Below, in pieces: positions 8,702 through 28,339 of a DNA stretch of 30,180 nucleotides. A program made the position numbers and the translations under genes. Within the stretch, counting starts at the first letter, position 1, and each line of letters starts with the position of its first letter. The notes beneath the pieces are model-generated. The model was not told the DNA's origin, searched no databases, and was given only the letters and a program-made list of their open reading frames with translations. Location: the NCBI GenBank assembly GCA_022712835.1, contig JAFLJU010000306.1, positions 1-30,180 of the forward strand, given 5' to 3'. Origin of the DNA: Desulfobacteraceae bacterium (GTDB taxonomy: Bacteria; Desulfobacterota; Desulfobacteria; Desulfobacterales; Desulfobacteraceae).

Positions 8702-9844
8702 TCACTCTTCCGGCAGAGGTAAAACTTTGTTTCGTCCTTGTCTTTTCGCCTTAAAAAGCTGGCGGTCGGCCATGGTGATTCCCTCTTCATAGGGGCGATC
8801 ATGGGCCATCTCTGCCACCCCGAAACTCATGGTGAATTTCACCTGTTTTTGGGAATATTCAACGGTTAGGTTTTCGATGGCCCGTCTGATTTTTTCGCCA
8901 AGGGTATAGGCCCCTTTGATATTTGTGTCAGGGAGTAATATGAGGAACTCTTCGCCTCCCCATCGGGCCACAAGATCCTGGGATCGTGTTTGCTCTTCGA
9001 ACAACCTGGCAAGGCGCTTGAGTGCGTGATCTCCTGTGGCGTGACCGTATTGATCGTTAATCGTTTTAAAAAAATCGATATCACCGAGAAGAATGGAAAA
9101 AGAATTTTTATTTCGCGTCATTCGGGTATGTTCATATTCCAGTCTGTCATAGATCCCCCTTCTGTTTAATAATCCGGTGAGCGCATCATGTTTGGCCATA
9201 ATGTCAAGCTGCCGGCTCAACTCTTTCATCCTGAGAAAGGTTTCTTGCCTGGAGTATTCGTAAACAGCGGTAATGATGACAATCGTCATATAGGAGACGA
9301 ATATGCGAATTTTAAATTCCATGGGATAAACAGTTGCATTAAAACTGTGATCGGGAAGGGAAAAAATAACCAGAACCAGGCCGGTGAACACAAGGGTGTA
9401 GTTAAGGCCACGCTTTAAATCATAGAGGAAAATGGCGGTAACCGGAAAAATAAATATCCAGACAGGGCCGGTATTTTCCACGCCACCCGAGTATACTAAG
9501 TATAGCATTAACACAAAAAGAGAGTGGATAAAAATATGTGAGGCGGTGTCAAACCTGGATGTTTTTCGTAAATAAAAAAAACTGGAGACAAAGAATGCCA
9601 TTACCAACAGATCCAGGGTGAAAAGCAGATAGTTTTGAAGGCGGAAGGTCAGGATCGATATGGGGAAGATGAAGATGACCCCGATTAAGCAAAACATATT
9701 TAATAAGTGGATTTTTCGTGAAGATTCAAGATCCGTCTTATCTAAAATGCCGTTATTTAATATGAATACAATGAACTGCCTGATTTTGATCATCCTTAAT
9801 CTATACACCAGGTTCGATTTGTTTTTCAACTTGAATCTGGCCAT
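8702..9844 (-). CDS. Membrane diguanylate cyclase (GGDEF)
   Basis: A 380-residue protein. About six membrane helices (residues 48-196) precede a linker and a GGDEF domain. Active-site motif GGEEF at 296-300, metal-binding GDID at 252-256, and the inhibitory I-site RSQD at 287-290, exactly five residues before GGEEF. It should therefore convert two GTP into cyclic di-GMP with product inhibition, under control of an unrecognised membrane sensor. No EAL domain. The ATG at 9844 has no good ribosome-binding site and a stop lies just upstream in frame; a start at Met18 is possible. It is the second gene after the CHASE4 sensor on the same strand, 137 bp apart. Confidence 0.93.
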   Translation of the reverse strand: MARFKLKNKSNLVYRLRMIKIRQFIVFILNNGILDKTDLESSRKIHLLNMFCLIGVIFIFPISILTFRLQNYLLFTLDLLVMAFFVSSFFYLRKTSRFDTASHIFIHSLFVLMLYLVYSGGVENTGPVWIFIFPVTAIFLYDLKRGLNYTLVFTGLVLVIFSLPDHSFNATVYPMEFKIRIFVSYMTIVIITAVYEYSRQETFLRMKELSRQLDIMAKHDALTGLLNRRGIYDRLEYEHTRMTRNKNSFSILLGDIDFFKTINDQYGHATGDHALKRLARLFEEQTRSQDLVARWGGEEFLILLPDTNIKGAYTLGEKIRRAIENLTVEYSQKQVKFTMSFGVAEMAHDRPYEEGITMADRQLFKAKRQGRNKVLPLPEE

Positions 9845-9981
9845 TGGGCCAGTTATTAATTATGAGCTGTGCGATACCCGTTATAGTGCTCACTAACGAT
9901 CAGTTTCAGACCCCTGAGGATTTCTTTCGGAAGCCATTGCCCAATCTTAATTATTCCTCGTTACATAAATACCCAAAATGC

Positions 9982-20782: not shown

Positions 20783-22462
20783 ATGAATATTTTAGCAGGC
20801 ACCCATTCATCGGCAAATGTCACCGTAAAACAAATGCGTGATAATAAATTTTTAAAAACCCCGGAAAGCATAAACTATTGGGAGCCGATTCAGAATCCCC
20901 TATCTTTTGAAACCATTCCCATCTTTCCTGACTATTTTGATTTCCTTCGTAAACACCAACCCGGGTGTTATGACTTTTTGCCCGTGGGATATGTGACAAT
21001 TGATGAAGAAGGGATTGTTAAAACTGCCAATTGGGCATTTAGTGAAATGCTGGGTGTTAAAAAAAGTCAGTTGCTTGATAAACCGTTTTTTGACCATATT
21101 CACAAAGAAGATCAACACAAATTGAGTCTGGATGCCAACAATCTTCCTGATATTTTGAATCAAACACTTGATATCCGGTTAAAAAAAAAAGACAAACTGT
21201 TATGGGGCCGTTTAACCCTCATCGTTGATGATGATTTTTTTTGCAGCAGGGGGCAGGTTGGGTTTTTTATCTTTAATATTGATGATTTAAAACAGGTTGA
21301 ACAGGAAAATGAAGAACTGAAACATAAGCTTCAACAGACACAGAAAATGGAAGCCATTGGTGAACTTTCAAGTGGTATTGTTCATGATTTTAACAATATT
21401 CTTCATCCTATCATCGGCAACCTTGAACGATTGATAGCAGATACCGCCCATGACAATAAGATTCAAACCCCTCTTGAAAATATTCTTAACGGGGCAAACA
21501 GAGCCAGTACACTCGTAAAACAGATTCTAAGTTTCAGTCACCGGGAAGAACTTGATATTCATCCGGTTAAAATTCAACCCATCATCTCAGAGGTCATAAA
21601 ACTGAGCCGGTCAAGCCTGCCTGCCACCATTAAAATAATCCAAACCATTGATGATGGGTGCGGGGAAGTTTTGGTAGACCCCACCCATATTTATCAGATC
21701 GCTATGAATCTGATTACCAATGCGGCCCATGCAATGGGGCAAAATGAGGGGATACTGGATGTGACTCTAAAGGAAATTTCAATCATTGGAACTCCCTCGG
21801 AATGCTTGTCTCTGAAGCCCGGAACCTATGTCTGCTTGTGCATCGCTGATACCGGAGAAGGAATAGATGCTGCGATCGTCAATCGCGTGTTTGAACCCTA
21901 TTTCACAACTAAAAAAACGGGTAGCGGACTTGGATTATCCGTTATCTCCCGGATTATAAACCAATATGGTGGAGATATCTGCTTTTCCAGTGAACCGGGT
22001 CATGGAAGTCTTTTTCAGGTCTACCTTCCCAGGAGTCTTCGTTCTGGCAGTGACATCCTGCCCACGGGTGATTTGCAAAAAAAATATTTTGGGTGCGACT
22101 CAATCCTTTTGGTCGATGATGACCCTGATATTGTGGAGTTCCAAAAAGAGAGTTTTGAAGGGTACGGATACAGGGTAACCCCCTTTGTGAGCAGCTTATC
22201 GGCGTATGCCGCATTTAAGGCCGGGCCGGAGGCGTTTGACATTGTTATCTGTGATATGACAATGCCGGACATGACAGGGTTGGCACTGGCAATTGAAGTT
22301 AAACAGATCAAACCGGATATCCCGGTTATTCTCTGTACTGGTTTTAGCAAAAAGATTAATATGAAAAATTATCAAAAAATGGGTGTTGATGGGTATTTAA
22401 TGAAACCCTTTAACGAGGATGCATCCCTGAAATTGATCCGTTACCTTTTGGATAAATTATAG
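20783..22462 (+). CDS. Soluble PAS hybrid histidine kinase with C-terminal receiver
   Basis: A 559-residue cytoplasmic protein without membrane helices. PAS domain about 62-170, coiled coil 170-188, HisKA with H201 in GIVHDFNNIL, HATPase with N310/N313 region (MNLITNAAHAM), DTGEGI (356-361) and GSGLGLS (380-386), then a receiver with DDD (445-447), D491 and K541 (LMKPF). The HDFNN-type H-box is that of the large PAS-kinase class of Desulfobacterota. No output domain, so the phosphate must pass to a separate protein. GGAG lies about 8 bases before the ATG; a strong sigma-54 promoter lies upstream. Confidence 0.95.
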   Translation: MNILAGTHSSANVTVKQMRDNKFLKTPESINYWEPIQNPLSFETIPIFPDYFDFLRKHQPGCYDFLPVGYVTIDEEGIVKTANWAFSEMLGVKKSQLLDKPFFDHIHKEDQHKLSLDANNLPDILNQTLDIRLKKKDKLLWGRLTLIVDDDFFCSRGQVGFFIFNIDDLKQVEQENEELKHKLQQTQKMEAIGELSSGIVHDFNNILHPIIGNLERLIADTAHDNKIQTPLENILNGANRASTLVKQILSFSHREELDIHPVKIQPIISEVIKLSRSSLPATIKIIQTIDDGCGEVLVDPTHIYQIAMNLITNAAHAMGQNEGILDVTLKEISIIGTPSECLSLKPGTYVCLCIADTGEGIDAAIVNRVFEPYFTTKKTGSGLGLSVISRIINQYGGDICFSSEPGHGSLFQVYLPRSLRSGSDILPTGDLQKKYFGCDSILLVDDDPDIVEFQKESFEGYGYRVTPFVSSLSAYAAFKAGPEAFDIVICDMTMPDMTGLALAIEVKQIKPDIPVILCTGFSKKINMKNYQKMGVDGYLMKPFNEDASLKLIRYLLDKL

Positions 22463-22845: not shown

Positions 22846-23436
22846 ATGGATAAACCTCTCAAAACGAATCCCCCGGAACCCTCTGTAAGCAAAGAAGTGA
22901 AATCGGGTATGGGGAACGAGTTCGGCGAAGTCGGTAATATGGATAAAATTCGTGATATCCTTTTTGGTAATCAGGCAAAGGATTATGAAAAACGGTTTGC
23001 TGCAATGGAAACTCGCCTTGCCCAGGAGGCGGGTGATCTTAAAACGGAATTGTTAAAGCGGATTGATGATTTGGAAACCTATACCAAGCAGGAGATAAAA
23101 GATTTAAATACACGGATTAGAAATGAATCAAACGATCGGATTGACTCCCATAAAACTATTCAAAATGAATTGAAACAGGGGGTTGAATCCCTGAATAAAA
23201 AATTGGCTCAGGGGGAGGCAAATCTGTCAACAAAATCCACCGAGCTGAGAGATCAGATTTTAAACCAGTCAAAACAATTATCCCAAGAGATACTTACCAA
23301 GTCAGATCATGTCTCAAAAAATTTGAAACATACTGCCCAGGAGCTTGACGATGCCAAGGTGAATCGTTCGGATCTGTCCGGTTTCTTTCTTGAGCTGGCC
23401 ATGCGGCTTTCCAATGATGAAAATGCCGGTTTGTAG
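22846..23436 (+). CDS. Coiled-coil protein of unknown function
   Basis: A 196-residue charged protein without signal peptide or membrane segment. After a disordered N-terminus (about 1-35) comes DKIRDILFGNQAKDYEKRF and then a long coiled coil to about residue 170, with short repeats of the type KTELLKRIDDLETYTKQEI. The end, NRSDLSGFFLELAMRLS, looks like a separate conserved helix. The ATG at 22846 is chosen because AAAGGAG lies just before it; the frame is open 87 bases further upstream without a ribosome-binding site. It is 54 bp upstream of the OmpA-type gene and probably acts as a cytoplasmic partner of that protein or the GTPase. Confidence 0.82.
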   Translation: MDKPLKTNPPEPSVSKEVKSGMGNEFGEVGNMDKIRDILFGNQAKDYEKRFAAMETRLAQEAGDLKTELLKRIDDLETYTKQEIKDLNTRIRNESNDRIDSHKTIQNELKQGVESLNKKLAQGEANLSTKSTELRDQILNQSKQLSQEILTKSDHVSKNLKHTAQELDDAKVNRSDLSGFFLELAMRLSNDENAGL

Positions 23437-23490
23437 GGTATGAAAGAATAATTTAAAAAAATCGACAACAGCGGAAAAAAGGCATCTGAC

Positions 23491-25224
23491 ATGGGTTCAA
23501 AAGCGGATGAAAGCAACGCGCTTGATACGTTAAGACTATTGCTGCTCAATCCTGAAAAAGAGCAGCTCCAGAAGATAGAAAATCGTCTGGATGATCCAAT
23601 TACGAGGGCAAAAGAACTGAGTCAGTCGTTGCCAGATGCCATCTCGTTATCTGTATTAGAGGGGAATAAATTATCCCGGGTTCTCCAACCTGTGATCGAC
23701 GCCTCACTAAAAGTGTCTGTCCAAAATAATCCCAGGGCATTTGCAGACGCTATCTCTCCTGCGCTGGGTCCGGGAATTCGGAAGGCCATCTCATCGACCA
23801 TCATGGGAATGATCCAATCCCTTAACCAGATGTTAAATCACAGCGTTTCCATCCAGGGCATGAAATGGCGATTTGAGGCCTTTCGAACCCGAAAACAATT
23901 TGCTGAAATTGTTTTGCTCCATACCCTTGTTTACCAGGTGGAGCAGATCTTTTTAATCCATGGGGAATCCGGTATTGTTCTGGACCATGTGGTTGCAAAA
24001 GATATCATTATACAGGACCCGGACTTGGTATCTGGGATGTTGACAGCAATCCAGGATTTTGTCAAAGATTCCTTTAACACACAAGATGATCTTGAAACCC
24101 TGCGCATGGGATCGGACAGAAGTGTCTGGATTGAAAAAGGAGAGCACGCCCTTATCGCCGCGGTAATAAGAGGAAACCCTCCCCTTGATATGCGTACGTA
24201 TTACCGGAGGCTGCTTGAAAAAATTCATATCAAGTCCGGCAGGGCTTTGGAAGAATTTGATGGAGATCCATTGCCTTTTTCAATCTTCCGGGAAGAATTA
24301 AAGGATGGGTTGCAATCCCAGGAAAAGAAAGAGAAAAAACGAACCTCGCCTTTTCTTTGGTGTATTCTTCTGGTGATTATCGCGGGGATTGGGTTTTGGG
24401 GAGTTTCGGCGTTTAAAAAAAATCAAACATGGCATCGCTATTTAGGTCGGCTTGAGGCCCAAAAAGGTCTGATTATACTCTCGGCACAAAAAACCGGGGG
24501 GCGATATCAAGTTTTTGGCCTTCGGGATCCCCTGGCAATAGATCCTGCAAGTTTGCTTCCCCAGAGCGACGAAAATCCTATTCCAATTGTAAGCCGGTGG
24601 AAGAAATTTTACAGCCTTGATCCGCAATTTGTTTTTCAACGGGTAGAAAAAATCTTGGCCCCCCCGGAAACCATAAAATTGGAACTATCTGGAAATTTAA
24701 TAATTGCAAAGGGCCAAGCCGGGCAGGATTGGATCACCCGGTTTCAAAACCTGTCCCCCACCATTCCGGGGATCAATGCCTACAATGATGAAATGATCCA
24801 AAACATGGATATCAAATCTCTGGATATTGCCTTAAAAGAGCTTGTGGGCATACGGATTTATTTTGAGAACAATAGTATAGAGTTCTTCGAGGGCCAGGAA
24901 TCCGTATTGGAGCAAACCATAAACCTGATTCATAATATCGGCAAATTGCAGTCCAAAGCCTTACGGCCGGTCCAGATTATTATTCTGGGGCACACCGATT
25001 CTTCGGGTAATGAGAAACAGAACCAGAAACTTAGCAGGGATAGGGCTGAAAAAATTTTTAGTCACCTGATCTTACAGGGAATAAGTCCAGCGTTTCTTTC
25101 CGTTTTAGGTGTCGGGACAAAAATCCCCATCGCTAAAGAAAGCCGTACTGAAGGCAAACAACTGAACAGAGCCGTAACATTTAAACCATTTTTTTTAGAC
25201 TTAGCAAAGGGCCGTTCTCAATGA
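23491..25224 (+). CDS. OmpA/MotB-type inner-membrane protein with large cytoplasmic domain
   Basis: A 577-residue protein. The N-terminal part (1-285) is soluble and conserved-looking, with LRLLLLNPEKEQL (14-26), MIQSLNQMLNHSVSIQGMKWRFEA (107-130) and SGMLTAIQDFVKDSF (181-195); I recall such domains in cyanobacterial OmpA-family proteins, but they have no standard name. One membrane helix lies at 288-307. The periplasmic part ends in an OmpA-like peptidoglycan-binding domain (about 450-560) with GHTDSSG and LSRDRAEKI. The protein thus links the cell wall with the cytoplasm. Its stop overlaps the GTPase start by four bases (ATGA), a sign of tight coupling. Confidence 0.9.
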   Translation: MGSKADESNALDTLRLLLLNPEKEQLQKIENRLDDPITRAKELSQSLPDAISLSVLEGNKLSRVLQPVIDASLKVSVQNNPRAFADAISPALGPGIRKAISSTIMGMIQSLNQMLNHSVSIQGMKWRFEAFRTRKQFAEIVLLHTLVYQVEQIFLIHGESGIVLDHVVAKDIIIQDPDLVSGMLTAIQDFVKDSFNTQDDLETLRMGSDRSVWIEKGEHALIAAVIRGNPPLDMRTYYRRLLEKIHIKSGRALEEFDGDPLPFSIFREELKDGLQSQEKKEKKRTSPFLWCILLVIIAGIGFWGVSAFKKNQTWHRYLGRLEAQKGLIILSAQKTGGRYQVFGLRDPLAIDPASLLPQSDENPIPIVSRWKKFYSLDPQFVFQRVEKILAPPETIKLELSGNLIIAKGQAGQDWITRFQNLSPTIPGINAYNDEMIQNMDIKSLDIALKELVGIRIYFENNSIEFFEGQESVLEQTINLIHNIGKLQSKALRPVQIIILGHTDSSGNEKQNQKLSRDRAEKIFSHLILQGISPAFLSVLGVGTKIPIAKESRTEGKQLNRAVTFKPFFLDLAKGRSQ

Positions 25225-25718
25225 TCAAGAAAAAAGTCTGCATGCTCGGGGCATTTGCCGTGGGCAAAACCAGCCTTGTCCAAAGGTATGTCCACAGCAT
25301 TTTTTCCGATAAATACCACACAACCGTTGGCGTGAAAATAGAGAAAGCACAGGTGAATATCGACAATACCCATGTGGATCTTATTATTTGGGATCTCCAT
25401 GGAGAGGATGACTTCCAACATGTCCGGCTTTCCTATTTGAAGGGATCGGCAGGCTTCATTTATGTTGTGGATGGAACCCGGGAGGCAACCTTGATAACCG
25501 CGATGAATTTAAAAGAAATCGTGGAAAGAACAATTGGAAAACTTCCCTTTGTTCTTGTTATTAATAAATTGGATTTAGAAGACCAATGGGAACTTGCTCC
25601 CTCGATCATGGAGGAACTTTCCGATCAGGGCATAACGGTGATGAAAGCCAGCGCAAAAACTGGGACACAGGTTGAGCAGATATTTCAATTCCTGACTAAA
25701 AAAATGATGGAAGCATAA
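25221..25718 (+). CDS. Ras/Rab-like small GTPase
   Basis: A 165-residue GTPase of the Ras superfamily. G1 GAFAVGKT (10-17), G2 threonine T34/T35 before VGVKI, G3 WDLHGED (57-63), G4 NKLD (115-118), G5 ASAKTG (143-148). The usual catalytic Gln after the G3 glycine is Glu62, so intrinsic hydrolysis may be low or depend on a partner. There is no C-terminal lipidation motif. It overlaps the OmpA-type gene and directly abuts the kinase gene (TAAATG), so all three are made together. It probably switches signal flow between the membrane protein and the kinase; no MglB/Roadblock protein is nearby. Confidence 0.93.
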   Translation: MIKKKVCMLGAFAVGKTSLVQRYVHSIFSDKYHTTVGVKIEKAQVNIDNTHVDLIIWDLHGEDDFQHVRLSYLKGSAGFIYVVDGTREATLITAMNLKEIVERTIGKLPFVLVINKLDLEDQWELAPSIMEELSDQGITVMKASAKTGTQVEQIFQFLTKKMMEA

Positions 25719-27482
25719 ATGTCGGATTCCACAGCCCATATATTGGAAAAAATATGTTTTCAGGTATTCAAGGATTGCAGCCTTGCCTATTTCATTACCG
25801 ATAAGCTTGGTAAAATATTTCAATGGGGGGGGGATCTTGCCGCCCTGAATATGTCATCCCCCGGGGAAGACTATTACCTTTCTGATGTGGTTCTTTTCAT
25901 GGAAGGTGTTTTGCCCTTAGAAGAAGAATCCATGGAGTTCTCCTGTATCAAAATGCCTTTTGATGTCTGCGTGGATGCGCTCCTTTTTGAAATTGACAAT
26001 GGTTATGGGCTGATTGTGTGGGATGCAACAAAAAAGGAAGCCTATTTGACACAGACACAACAAAGATGCAATGAGCTCAGTCTTTTGATAGAGCAACAGA
26101 AAAATCGCATGATTCATCCCCCGGGTAAATATATTGGGGGGAAAAAAGATCCGTTTATGGAAGATCTTTTCCAGGCACTTAATTTTGTTGTTCTGGAAAT
26201 GAACCCCCAGGGCTATTTTGTTCTCATCGGTATCCCTCCCCCATGGATTCGACAAATTCCCCAATCAAGTCAGATTCTGTCCGGAAAGCCCTATGAAGAA
26301 GATGTCTTTAGTTTCCTCGGAAATTTTATTCAGGATTCAAAAGCACAATGGTCAAAAAATCAAACCAAAACCTTGAAATCAGGAATTTGGCTTGAAAAGG
26401 ATGAGAGAGACCAGGAGCTTTTACTCGAAGCAACCGCCATTGATATTCAGGGAAGAAAACTAATCATCATCGCCCAGGATGTCTGTGATCCCAATGAAAA
26501 GCAATCCATTATCCAAAAAGGAAGAAACCTTGCCCTGCATTATCATGATCTGAAACGGTCCGGGCAAAAGCTACGGGGTCAGCATGATGAATTGGAATTG
26601 CGTGTGAAAGAAAGAACCCGGGACTTGGAAGAGGCCAATCGACAATTGGCAAGAGAGCTGAAAGAACGGAAAAAAGTTGAACAAGAGCGCGAGGAAGTCT
26701 CCCGTCAATTGCGTCAGTCCCAAAAAATGGAGGCTATTGGAACACTGGCAGGTGGTATCGCCCATGATTTCAATAATATCTTGTCTGCCATCATGGGGTT
26801 TACGGAATTATCCCTTTTTGAAACCCAGGAGGGGTCAACGTTAAGGTCAATGCTGGAAAAGATTCTTCGGTCATCCAATCGTGCAAAGGAATTGGTCCAG
26901 CAGATTCTTACCTTTAGTCATCAAAGTGAATATGAAAAAAAGCCCTTGAAGTTACGATCGATCATCATCGAAGTGCTTGATCTTATCCGGGTGTCTATTC
27001 CCCCATCCATTGATATCAAAAAAGATCTGCAAAGCCATTCCCATGTTCTTGCAGATCAAACCCAAATGCATCAGGTTATTATGAATTTATGTACCAATGC
27101 CTGGTATGCCATGAAGGAAAATGGGGGTACCCTTGGGATAACGCTTGCGGATGTTGATATTTTCCCGGAGGACCAAGGGGCATCTGGTGAATTATCCCCC
27201 GGCCGCTATGTGATGCTGACGATTCAGGATACGGGGTGTGGTATTCGGCCGGAGTTAATTGAAAAAATTTTTGACCCCTATTTTACAACAAAGGAGAAGG
27301 ACAAAGGGACAGGACTCGGGCTATCGGTTGTCCACGGCATTGTGGCTAAATCCAAGGGGCATATTGCCATCAACAGCCAATTGGGAAAGGGGAGTGAATT
27401 TTCCGTATATCTGCCCTTGTTTGGTGTGCCCGGTAAACCTATGGTGGAAAAAGAATACTTGAGGGTTGGTAATAATGAGTGA
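25719..27482 (+). CDS. PAS histidine kinase, receiver domain lost
   Basis: A 587-residue cytoplasmic kinase. Two PAS-like regions (about 15-105 and 150-255), a coiled coil (268-335), HisKA with H349 in GIAHDFNNIL, HATPase with N460, DTGCGI (504-509), YFTTKEKDKGTGLGLS (521-536). The protein ends LRVGNNE, just where a hybrid kinase would run into its receiver, and after the stop TGA the same frame continues as the last part of a receiver. So it was probably a hybrid kinase before a deletion. Kinase motifs look intact. Last intact gene of the coiled-coil/OmpA/GTPase operon; it starts directly after the GTPase stop. Confidence 0.92.
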   Translation: MSDSTAHILEKICFQVFKDCSLAYFITDKLGKIFQWGGDLAALNMSSPGEDYYLSDVVLFMEGVLPLEEESMEFSCIKMPFDVCVDALLFEIDNGYGLIVWDATKKEAYLTQTQQRCNELSLLIEQQKNRMIHPPGKYIGGKKDPFMEDLFQALNFVVLEMNPQGYFVLIGIPPPWIRQIPQSSQILSGKPYEEDVFSFLGNFIQDSKAQWSKNQTKTLKSGIWLEKDERDQELLLEATAIDIQGRKLIIIAQDVCDPNEKQSIIQKGRNLALHYHDLKRSGQKLRGQHDELELRVKERTRDLEEANRQLARELKERKKVEQEREEVSRQLRQSQKMEAIGTLAGGIAHDFNNILSAIMGFTELSLFETQEGSTLRSMLEKILRSSNRAKELVQQILTFSHQSEYEKKPLKLRSIIIEVLDLIRVSIPPSIDIKKDLQSHSHVLADQTQMHQVIMNLCTNAWYAMKENGGTLGITLADVDIFPEDQGASGELSPGRYVMLTIQDTGCGIRPELIEKIFDPYFTTKEKDKGTGLGLSVVHGIVAKSKGHIAINSQLGKGSEFSVYLPLFGVPGKPMVEKEYLRVGNNE

Positions 27483-27665
27483 ATCCTGTGTTCAGGGTAT
27501 AGCGATGATATTGATGTGGCCCAATTAAAAAAGATGGGGATTACCCAATATCTGATGAAACCCATCGGAATAAAGGATCTGGCCAGGGAGATTAAATGGG
27601 CATTGTCGAAATCAGCCCCTGGGAAAATAGTCCCTGGAGAATCAGATGGGAAACGCTTTATTTAA
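27483..27665 (+). pseudogene. Remnant of the receiver domain of the upstream kinase
   Basis: Sixty codons in the same frame as the kinase, directly after its TGA stop. The translation begins ILCSGYSDDIDVAQLKKMG and contains LMKPI with the conserved receiver lysine; it aligns with PVILCTGFSKKINMKNYQKMG...YLMKPF of the hybrid kinase encoded at 20783-22462. The acidic pocket and the phospho-acceptor Asp are absent, so about 80 residues at the front of the domain are missing. There is no start codon with a ribosome-binding site. Confidence 0.85.
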
Positions 27666-27742: not shown

Positions 27743-28339
27743 ATGCCGGAATTGATTGAACGACAGATACTGCTCAATGCAAAAGATTTTAAACGTTTCT
27801 GGAAAGAGAGGGGGCCCTTTAAATATGCCCTGTCCAGCAATGAATTTCCCTCCATATTGCTGGAACCGGAAGAATGGATTTTTGGCAATGACATCCATTT
27901 ATTGTTAAAAGAATTGATGCAGTTTGATCAGAAGAAAATGGCCTTTGTCCAGGCGCCTTTTAATCCGAAGAATAAGGGCATTTTAAGGCCCGAGGGCTTA
28001 AGCCCCTGGAAGATTAATCATTTTCCTGAACAATGGAACCGGGTTGTTTGCGATCTTTTTGTTCCCGAAGGGCATTTAACCTGTTTGGTCATGGACAGGG
28101 CAAGAAACTCGGAAAATATAGACCAGTCCACCCAGTGTTTGGACGGTGCTTCTGAAAAACAAACAATAGAAAAACAAGCGGTGGAAAAGGCATTTTTTCA
28201 ATTGCTTGAACAAGAGCTTGAAACCATGGGATATCTTTTGCTTAAACCCCATGGAAAGTCAAGTGATGCTTCCCATGCAGCAATAGACACTTATCTTTCA
28301 GAGTGGGAGGAAGATGACCGAGAGGCCGGACTGTTCTGA
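27743..28339 (+). CDS. Hypothetical acidic protein
   Basis: A 198-residue soluble protein that I do not recognise. It has no signal peptide or membrane segment. It begins ELIERQILLNAKDFKRFWKERG, has a Trp/Pro-containing centre (EPEEWIFGNDIHLLL, SPWKINHFPEQW, residues 41-97) and an acidic C-terminus (SEWEEDDREAGLF). No catalytic motif is apparent. The ribosome-binding site is weak (AGGA about 12 bases before the ATG). It lies 77 bp after the receiver remnant on the same strand and may be the last gene of the GTPase/kinase operon. It converges with the ATP-grasp gene, 10 bp apart. Confidence 0.72.
   Translation: MPELIERQILLNAKDFKRFWKERGPFKYALSSNEFPSILLEPEEWIFGNDIHLLLKELMQFDQKKMAFVQAPFNPKNKGILRPEGLSPWKINHFPEQWNRVVCDLFVPEGHLTCLVMDRARNSENIDQSTQCLDGASEKQTIEKQAVEKAFFQLLEQELETMGYLLLKPHGKSSDASHAAIDTYLSEWEEDDREAGLF

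Follow-up and report, generated by a model that had tools for sequence, protein, structure and literature searches.

The stretch of DNA analysed here, 30,180 nucleotides of contig JAFLJU010000306.1 from a Desulfobacteraceae bacterium (assembly GCA_022712835.1; called the window in the following), carries on its forward strand a module of four closely spaced genes. They encode a coiled-coil protein (22846..23436, 196 amino acids (aa), ATG at 22846, stop at 23436), an OmpA-type membrane protein (23491..25224, 577 aa), a Ras-like GTPase of the Group 1 Rup type (25221..25718, 165 aa, PF00071) and a histidine kinase without receiver domain (25719..27482, 587 aa, PF00512 and PF02518). All four open reading frames (ORFs) were verified as present and open with the window sequence and the ORF list. 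The first gene is preceded by AAAGGAG, and its product has a conserved N-terminal motif around IRDILFG. The tight packing described in the initial annotation was confirmed, as the OmpA-type and GTPase genes share an ATGA overlap and the kinase ATG at 25719 follows immediately after the GTPase stop. A scan for transcription signals was uninformative, with 13 promoter-like sites versus 12.7 expected and 11 terminator-like sites versus 8.3 expected.

This operon is a true and conserved unit of an already published kind, described as Group 1 Rup systems by Wuichet and Sogaard-Andersen (2014; PMC4316618). The GTPase matches PF00071 with an E-value of 8e-32 and contains G1 to G5, with WD..G retained in 58/58 homologues. 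As a 165-aa single-domain protein it fits the Group 1 criterion of 150-240 aa, eukaryote-like G motifs and an Asp in G3. Its G3 motif is WDLHGE, in which Glu62 replaces the catalytic Gln; among the 58 homologues this position is occupied by Glu in 42 and by Gln in 3. According to PMC4316618, Group 1 GTPases are very similar to eukaryotic Rab, Ran, Ras and Rho proteins and adjoin a coiled-coil gene, a gene encoding an unknown domain followed by a transmembrane segment and an OmpA domain, and an output gene, typically for a GGDEF/EAL protein or a histidine kinase, whose product has an invariant Gln in its N-terminal region. The window shows the same combination of a G3 motif devoid of Gln, these three neighbours and an N-terminal Gln in the output protein. 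In the same paper, the regulators of Group 1 are given as unknown, no Rup protein is listed as characterised and one as known to be transcribed, and a joint function of Rup proteins with MglB is not expected. In line with the initial annotation, which had pointed out the lack of an MglB/Roadblock partner, no Roadblock family was present among the Pfam matches of the neighbours.

The OmpA-type protein begins with a helical part (residues 1-134) that was modelled with low confidence, followed by a predicted longin-like domain (residues 148-279; 23932..24327), a transmembrane segment (residues about 288-306; 24352..24408; hydropathy 2.31 over 19 residues) and, in the periplasmic part C-terminal to this segment, a peptidoglycan-binding OmpA domain (residues 465-560; 24883..25170; PF00691, 52.1 bits). 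Because only one clear transmembrane segment is present, about 287 residues reside inside, in good agreement with the inner domain of about 285 residues that had been annotated. The closest named relatives of this protein are encoded in metagenome-assembled genomes of Desulfobacteraceae, such as Desulfobacula sp., and share at most 74% identity. Models were built from 73 of 120 listed matches for the OmpA-type protein and from 53 of 59 matches for the kinase. The longin-like assignment draws on the AlphaFold2 (AF2) model, on comparison with the PDB and on conservation by structural element. In the AF2 model, DSSP assigned a b-b-a-b-b-b-a-a topology to residues 148-272, which is the topology by which longins are defined (PMC6864590), and solved longins were matched in the PDB comparison. 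The membrane-proximal part of the N-terminal domain is thereby predicted to adopt a longin-like fold, which makes this domain a good candidate for the GTPase partner and suggests that a wall-anchored protein contains a domain of the type regulating Rab GTPases in human cells.

The kinase starts with two PAS-like domains, A (residues 1-135 with Gln115; 25719..26123) and B (residues 144-285 with Gln266; 26148..26573). Its designation as a PAS kinase in the initial annotation holds for the predicted model, in which both domains have a PAS fold, but not for Pfam, where no PAS family matched at E≤1. Q115 and Q266 are invariant in 54 aligned sequences, comprising the window and the 53 matches used for modelling. 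Gln is kept in 39 of 40 A domains, whereas B domains have Gln in 20 of 26 cases and otherwise Arg (4) or Gly (2), with an Arg three residues further on in 26/26. In the model, the conserved Gln is located in the helix after the PAS fold. The same N-terminal domains head cyclase, GGDEF, GGDEF-EAL and HD-GYP proteins in relatives, according to a Pfam scan of 32 of 53 outputs chosen for diversity, and the kinase is one among several outputs of a conserved module. As separate observations, L081 has a free-standing A domain of 151 aa (9402-9857) after the GTPase and its longin/OmpA gene on the opposite strand, and L090 encodes a sigma-54 activator with a Fis-type helix-turn-helix (1036-2397) after a Rup-like GTPase, which neither the A nor the B profile matches.

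The kinase had been annotated as extending to 27665, which is incorrect: its stop codon is at 27480-27482, after residue 587, and the protein ends with RVGNNE. Behind this TGA, the kinase frame continues through the C-terminal portion of a receiver domain (27483..27665) that lacks the region of the phospho-acceptor Asp, and the window protein is not a hybrid kinase. Relatives L005 and L068 possess the whole receiver. An assembly error as cause of the truncation is less likely, since a second contig, 15,931 bases in length, encodes a protein of 587 aa (P0121, a cluster of 4 sequences) with no difference throughout residues 1-280, and P0122, a relative of 596 aa with 90% identity, likewise ends, putatively, just inside the receiver. 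With the receiver lost, phosphotransfer, if any, must use another one. A PAS hybrid histidine kinase with intact receiver is encoded at 20783-22462 of the window, precedes the module in L005 and L069 as well, and is one candidate for providing it. In L005 (14527-16172), L068 and L069, a pair of MotB-like (MotB_plug and OmpA) and MotA-like genes is located between the hybrid kinase gene and a homologue of a 198-aa gene of the window (27743-28339), where no such pair is found between these two genes. The 198-aa protein has no Pfam match at E≤1 and has conserved counterparts close to the module in the same three relatives.

Homologues of the GTPase (E≤1e-15) were detected in 46 of 398 genomes from the phylum of genome G006, in 11 of 297 from the phylum of G005 and in 12 of 86 from the family of G005, with G005 itself counted in both of its sets. 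We compared 63 gene neighbourhoods, consisting of the window, two plasmid loci and 60 of the 76 distinct GTPase places found at E≤1e-15, chiefly places whose flanks were longer. One of the loci with the module, L016, belongs to Mesorhizobium. The GTPase ORF was missed by our simple gene caller in five neighbourhoods (L083, L095, L116, L117 and L126) and mis-called some neighbours. In 41 of the 58 neighbourhoods in which the GTPase gene was called, all four genes are present in the same order; a longin/OmpA gene lies directly upstream of the GTPase gene in 46/58, a coiled-coil gene is the second upstream in 44/58 and an output with domain A or B follows downstream in 52/58, one 'A+B' assignment (L121) being a weak match within B. 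Between the OmpA-type gene and the GTPase gene, an overlap of four bases is more frequent than any other spacing. Some of the 17 misses are at contig ends (e.g. L073 and L103) and some are second GTPase copies (e.g. L078-L080 and L100), while the remaining ones reflect gene calling or divergence. Extra Rup-like GTPases are encoded at L078:2460-3026, L079:8830-9435 and L080:1320-1886, none with a longin/OmpA gene called directly upstream; these loci belong to genomes G319 and G321, both of which have the full module as well. A further GTPase copy at G531:C20:15695-16171 contains four internal stops, and the adjacent matches to the longin segment and to domain A are uninterrupted; judged from its sequence, this copy has decayed and belongs to a second module.

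The route suggested in the initial annotation, from cell-wall state through the GTPase to phosphorelay output, is partly supported, namely in the conserved module and the candidate partner domain. Conserved co-occurrence, the check that had been proposed for the initial annotation, did not refute it. Among the 398 genomes, 46 have the GTPase and 49 the longin segment (E≤1e-5), and 44 have both (Fisher p 2e-50, a value that ignores kinship). Within 3 kb of the GTPase lie 45 of 52 longin-segment matches, and conversely 44 of 49 GTPase places have the segment within this distance. Together with the gene order kept in most neighbourhoods, this indicates that the arrangement is not due to chance. 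The A profile (E≤1e-5) matched 39 places in 38 of the 398 genomes, all of them 5-35 bases from a GTPase match. The B profile matched 10 places in 9 of the 297 genomes of the other phylum, all having the GTPase; eight are in the output gene adjoining the GTPase gene, and the other two, both in G108, lie at a distance of about 4.3 kb and on a separate contig, respectively. The sequences behind the A, B and longin profiles came from GTPase neighbourhoods, some of them in the genomes searched, and in some genomes the best candidates alone were scored. Occurring almost only beside one GTPase, A and B are, on the basis of these sequence matches, best read as its dedicated effector domains.

The reading that we favour, although we give it slightly less than an even chance, is that the four genes form one envelope-linked GTPase switch, in which the longin-like domain regulates the GTPase and the GTPase acts on the kinase via A and B. 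The OmpA domain would fix the OmpA-type protein to peptidoglycan, and the single crossing of the inner membrane would place the longin-like domain at the inner face. There, probably as a dimer, it may bind the Rab-like GTPase via the conserved central helix and control which nucleotide this GTPase carries, exchange factor being its most likely role. Once loaded, the GTPase would bind domain A, domain B or both at the N-terminus of the kinase and alter kinase activity through the helices following each PAS fold, with the coiled-coil protein as a possible scaffold or further effector. The gene order, its conservation, the association of domain A (and largely of B) with the GTPase gene and the range of catalytic outputs behind these domains are observed, and the longin-like and PAS folds are predicted. 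We infer all of these contacts, the exchange activity, the wall state as input and the direction of the signal. New leads come from the longin-like domain predicted for the wall-anchored protein and from the putative effector domains, and the mechanism is a hypothesis. In its strongest form, this would be a true bacterial longin-type Rab regulator: a protein anchored to peptidoglycan and crossing the membrane once, with a longin domain in the cytoplasm that loads or unloads a Rab-like GTPase by envelope state, and with the GTPase switching PAS-type effectors on interchangeable outputs (kinase, cyclase, GGDEF and HD-GYP). We consider this stronger form somewhat unlikely.

Alternatively, domains A and B could act as a GTPase-activating protein (GAP) by supplying the conserved output Gln in trans, as speculated in PMC4316618, with the longin-like domain merely as membrane platform. 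The Glu in G3 of this GTPase and most homologues and the near-constant Gln of the A domains, as well as the invariance of Q115 and Q266, argue for such a function, but the Gln of B domains is kept less strictly than the Arg three residues further on. In addition, the Gln is found in the helix following the PAS fold, a usual site of signal-coupling residues, and we regard a GAP function of A and B as unlikely. The signal might also run in the opposite direction, with the kinase as sensing input, the GTPase as output and the longin protein relaying the GTPase state to the wall. This is consistent with the absence of a receiver from the window kinase and with the pairing of kinase and Ras-like GTPase in actinobacterial conservons, for which PMC4316618 posits such an order. 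The output enzymes that carry the same N-terminal domains in relatives argue against it, and we regard this direction as distinctly unlikely.

Several results weigh against the envelope-linked switch, and most of them concern the longin-like domain. The model of the N-terminal part of the OmpA-type protein is middling (mean predicted local distance difference test score, pLDDT, 62), with 50-63 in residues 171-210 that include the central helix. Only two Foldseek matches reached E≤0.001, and MglB was absent among the 50 VIA structure matches listed. The PAS-like kinase model also drew Fuzzy-Inturned and Mon1-Ccz1 chains (Foldseek, E 2.7e-4 to 4.6e-4), indicating that these superfolds blur. When compared with the PDB, the profile of the longin segment matched six chains at E≤10, mostly designed helical bundles and no longin, and the 60 listed of 83 matches of the whole OmpA-type family profile were all on the part with the OmpA domain. 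The Pfam family Fuz_longin_1 matched just 6 of 50 family members (best E 0.0036) and did not single out the locus in 30 genomes, 11 of which had matches at E≤10; in G001, G002 and G287 one match is in the OmpA-type gene (E 0.45-1.0) and is outscored by other chance matches. A homologue search with the longin segment returned 34 matches with lengths of 83-270 aa, all devoid of Pfam domains, and yielded no bridge to named longins. The weak match of the segment to the Roadblock profile (p 0.0012 over 102 columns) is unspecific because domain A gave 0.0024 against the same profile, with values of 0.054 to 0.47 for the other seven profile pairs. The longin segment was also present without GTPase match in five of the 398 genomes, and remote copies of A, B and the segment could be missed by profiles derived from GTPase neighbours. 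Longin folds additionally serve in adaptors and SNAREs. A false similarity, in which the domain has another PAS/profilin-like alpha-beta fold unrelated to the GTPase and co-occurrence results from co-transcription alone, would fit the middling model confidence, the negative or weak sequence tests and the longin matches of the kinase model, but appears quite improbable to us.

Compared with Group 1 Rup systems as published, the window shares the Rab/Ras-like GTPase without G3 Gln, the coiled-coil gene, the gene for unknown domain, transmembrane segment and OmpA domain, and the output with N-terminal Gln. It differs by the tandem of two PAS-like domains at the output N-terminus, the lost receiver and the longin-like fold proposed for the unknown domain, and its relatives add cyclase, HD-GYP and one sigma-54 type output to the GGDEF/EAL proteins and kinases named as typical in PMC4316618. 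The predicted b-b-a-b-b-b-a-a fold with its conserved central helix resembles the longin Rab exchange factors Mon1-Ccz1, Fuzzy-Inturned and TRAPP, and the partner GTPase belongs to a group described there as very similar to Rab/Ran/Ras/Rho. In contrast to these factors, the OmpA-type protein is bacterial, single-pass and wall-anchored, lacks a sequence-level match to them and is a predicted longin protein with a putative exchange activity. MglA-MglB pairs of GTPase and GAP also combine a small GTPase with a protein of the Roadblock/longin superfold, whereas PF03259 was unmatched in the eight window proteins scanned at E≤1 and the G3 motif is WDLHGE instead of TVPGQ or GTPGQ (motifs from PMC4316618). 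Actinobacterial conservons (CvnA-D) likewise combine a kinase and a Ras-like GTPase in one operon, but here there is no Roadblock gene and no LPxR at the kinase C-terminus, and an OmpA-type anchor is present instead.

Among the papers listed by searches of the open-licence literature of PubMed Central, we found none on bacterial operons of this type that include a longin domain, and the Rup terms occurred in PMC4316618 and one unrelated paper. The longin-like domain in the operon partner represents a concrete candidate regulator for Group 1 Rup GTPases and offers a testable route from the cell wall to second messengers or phosphorylation. The dedicated PAS-like domains may serve as a genome marker for finding effectors of this GTPase. 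The longin-like partner also provides a handle on the origin of the Rab-longin pairing, and if it is a true bacterial longin-type Rab regulator, this pairing would predate eukaryotes and Asgard archaea or extend beyond them.
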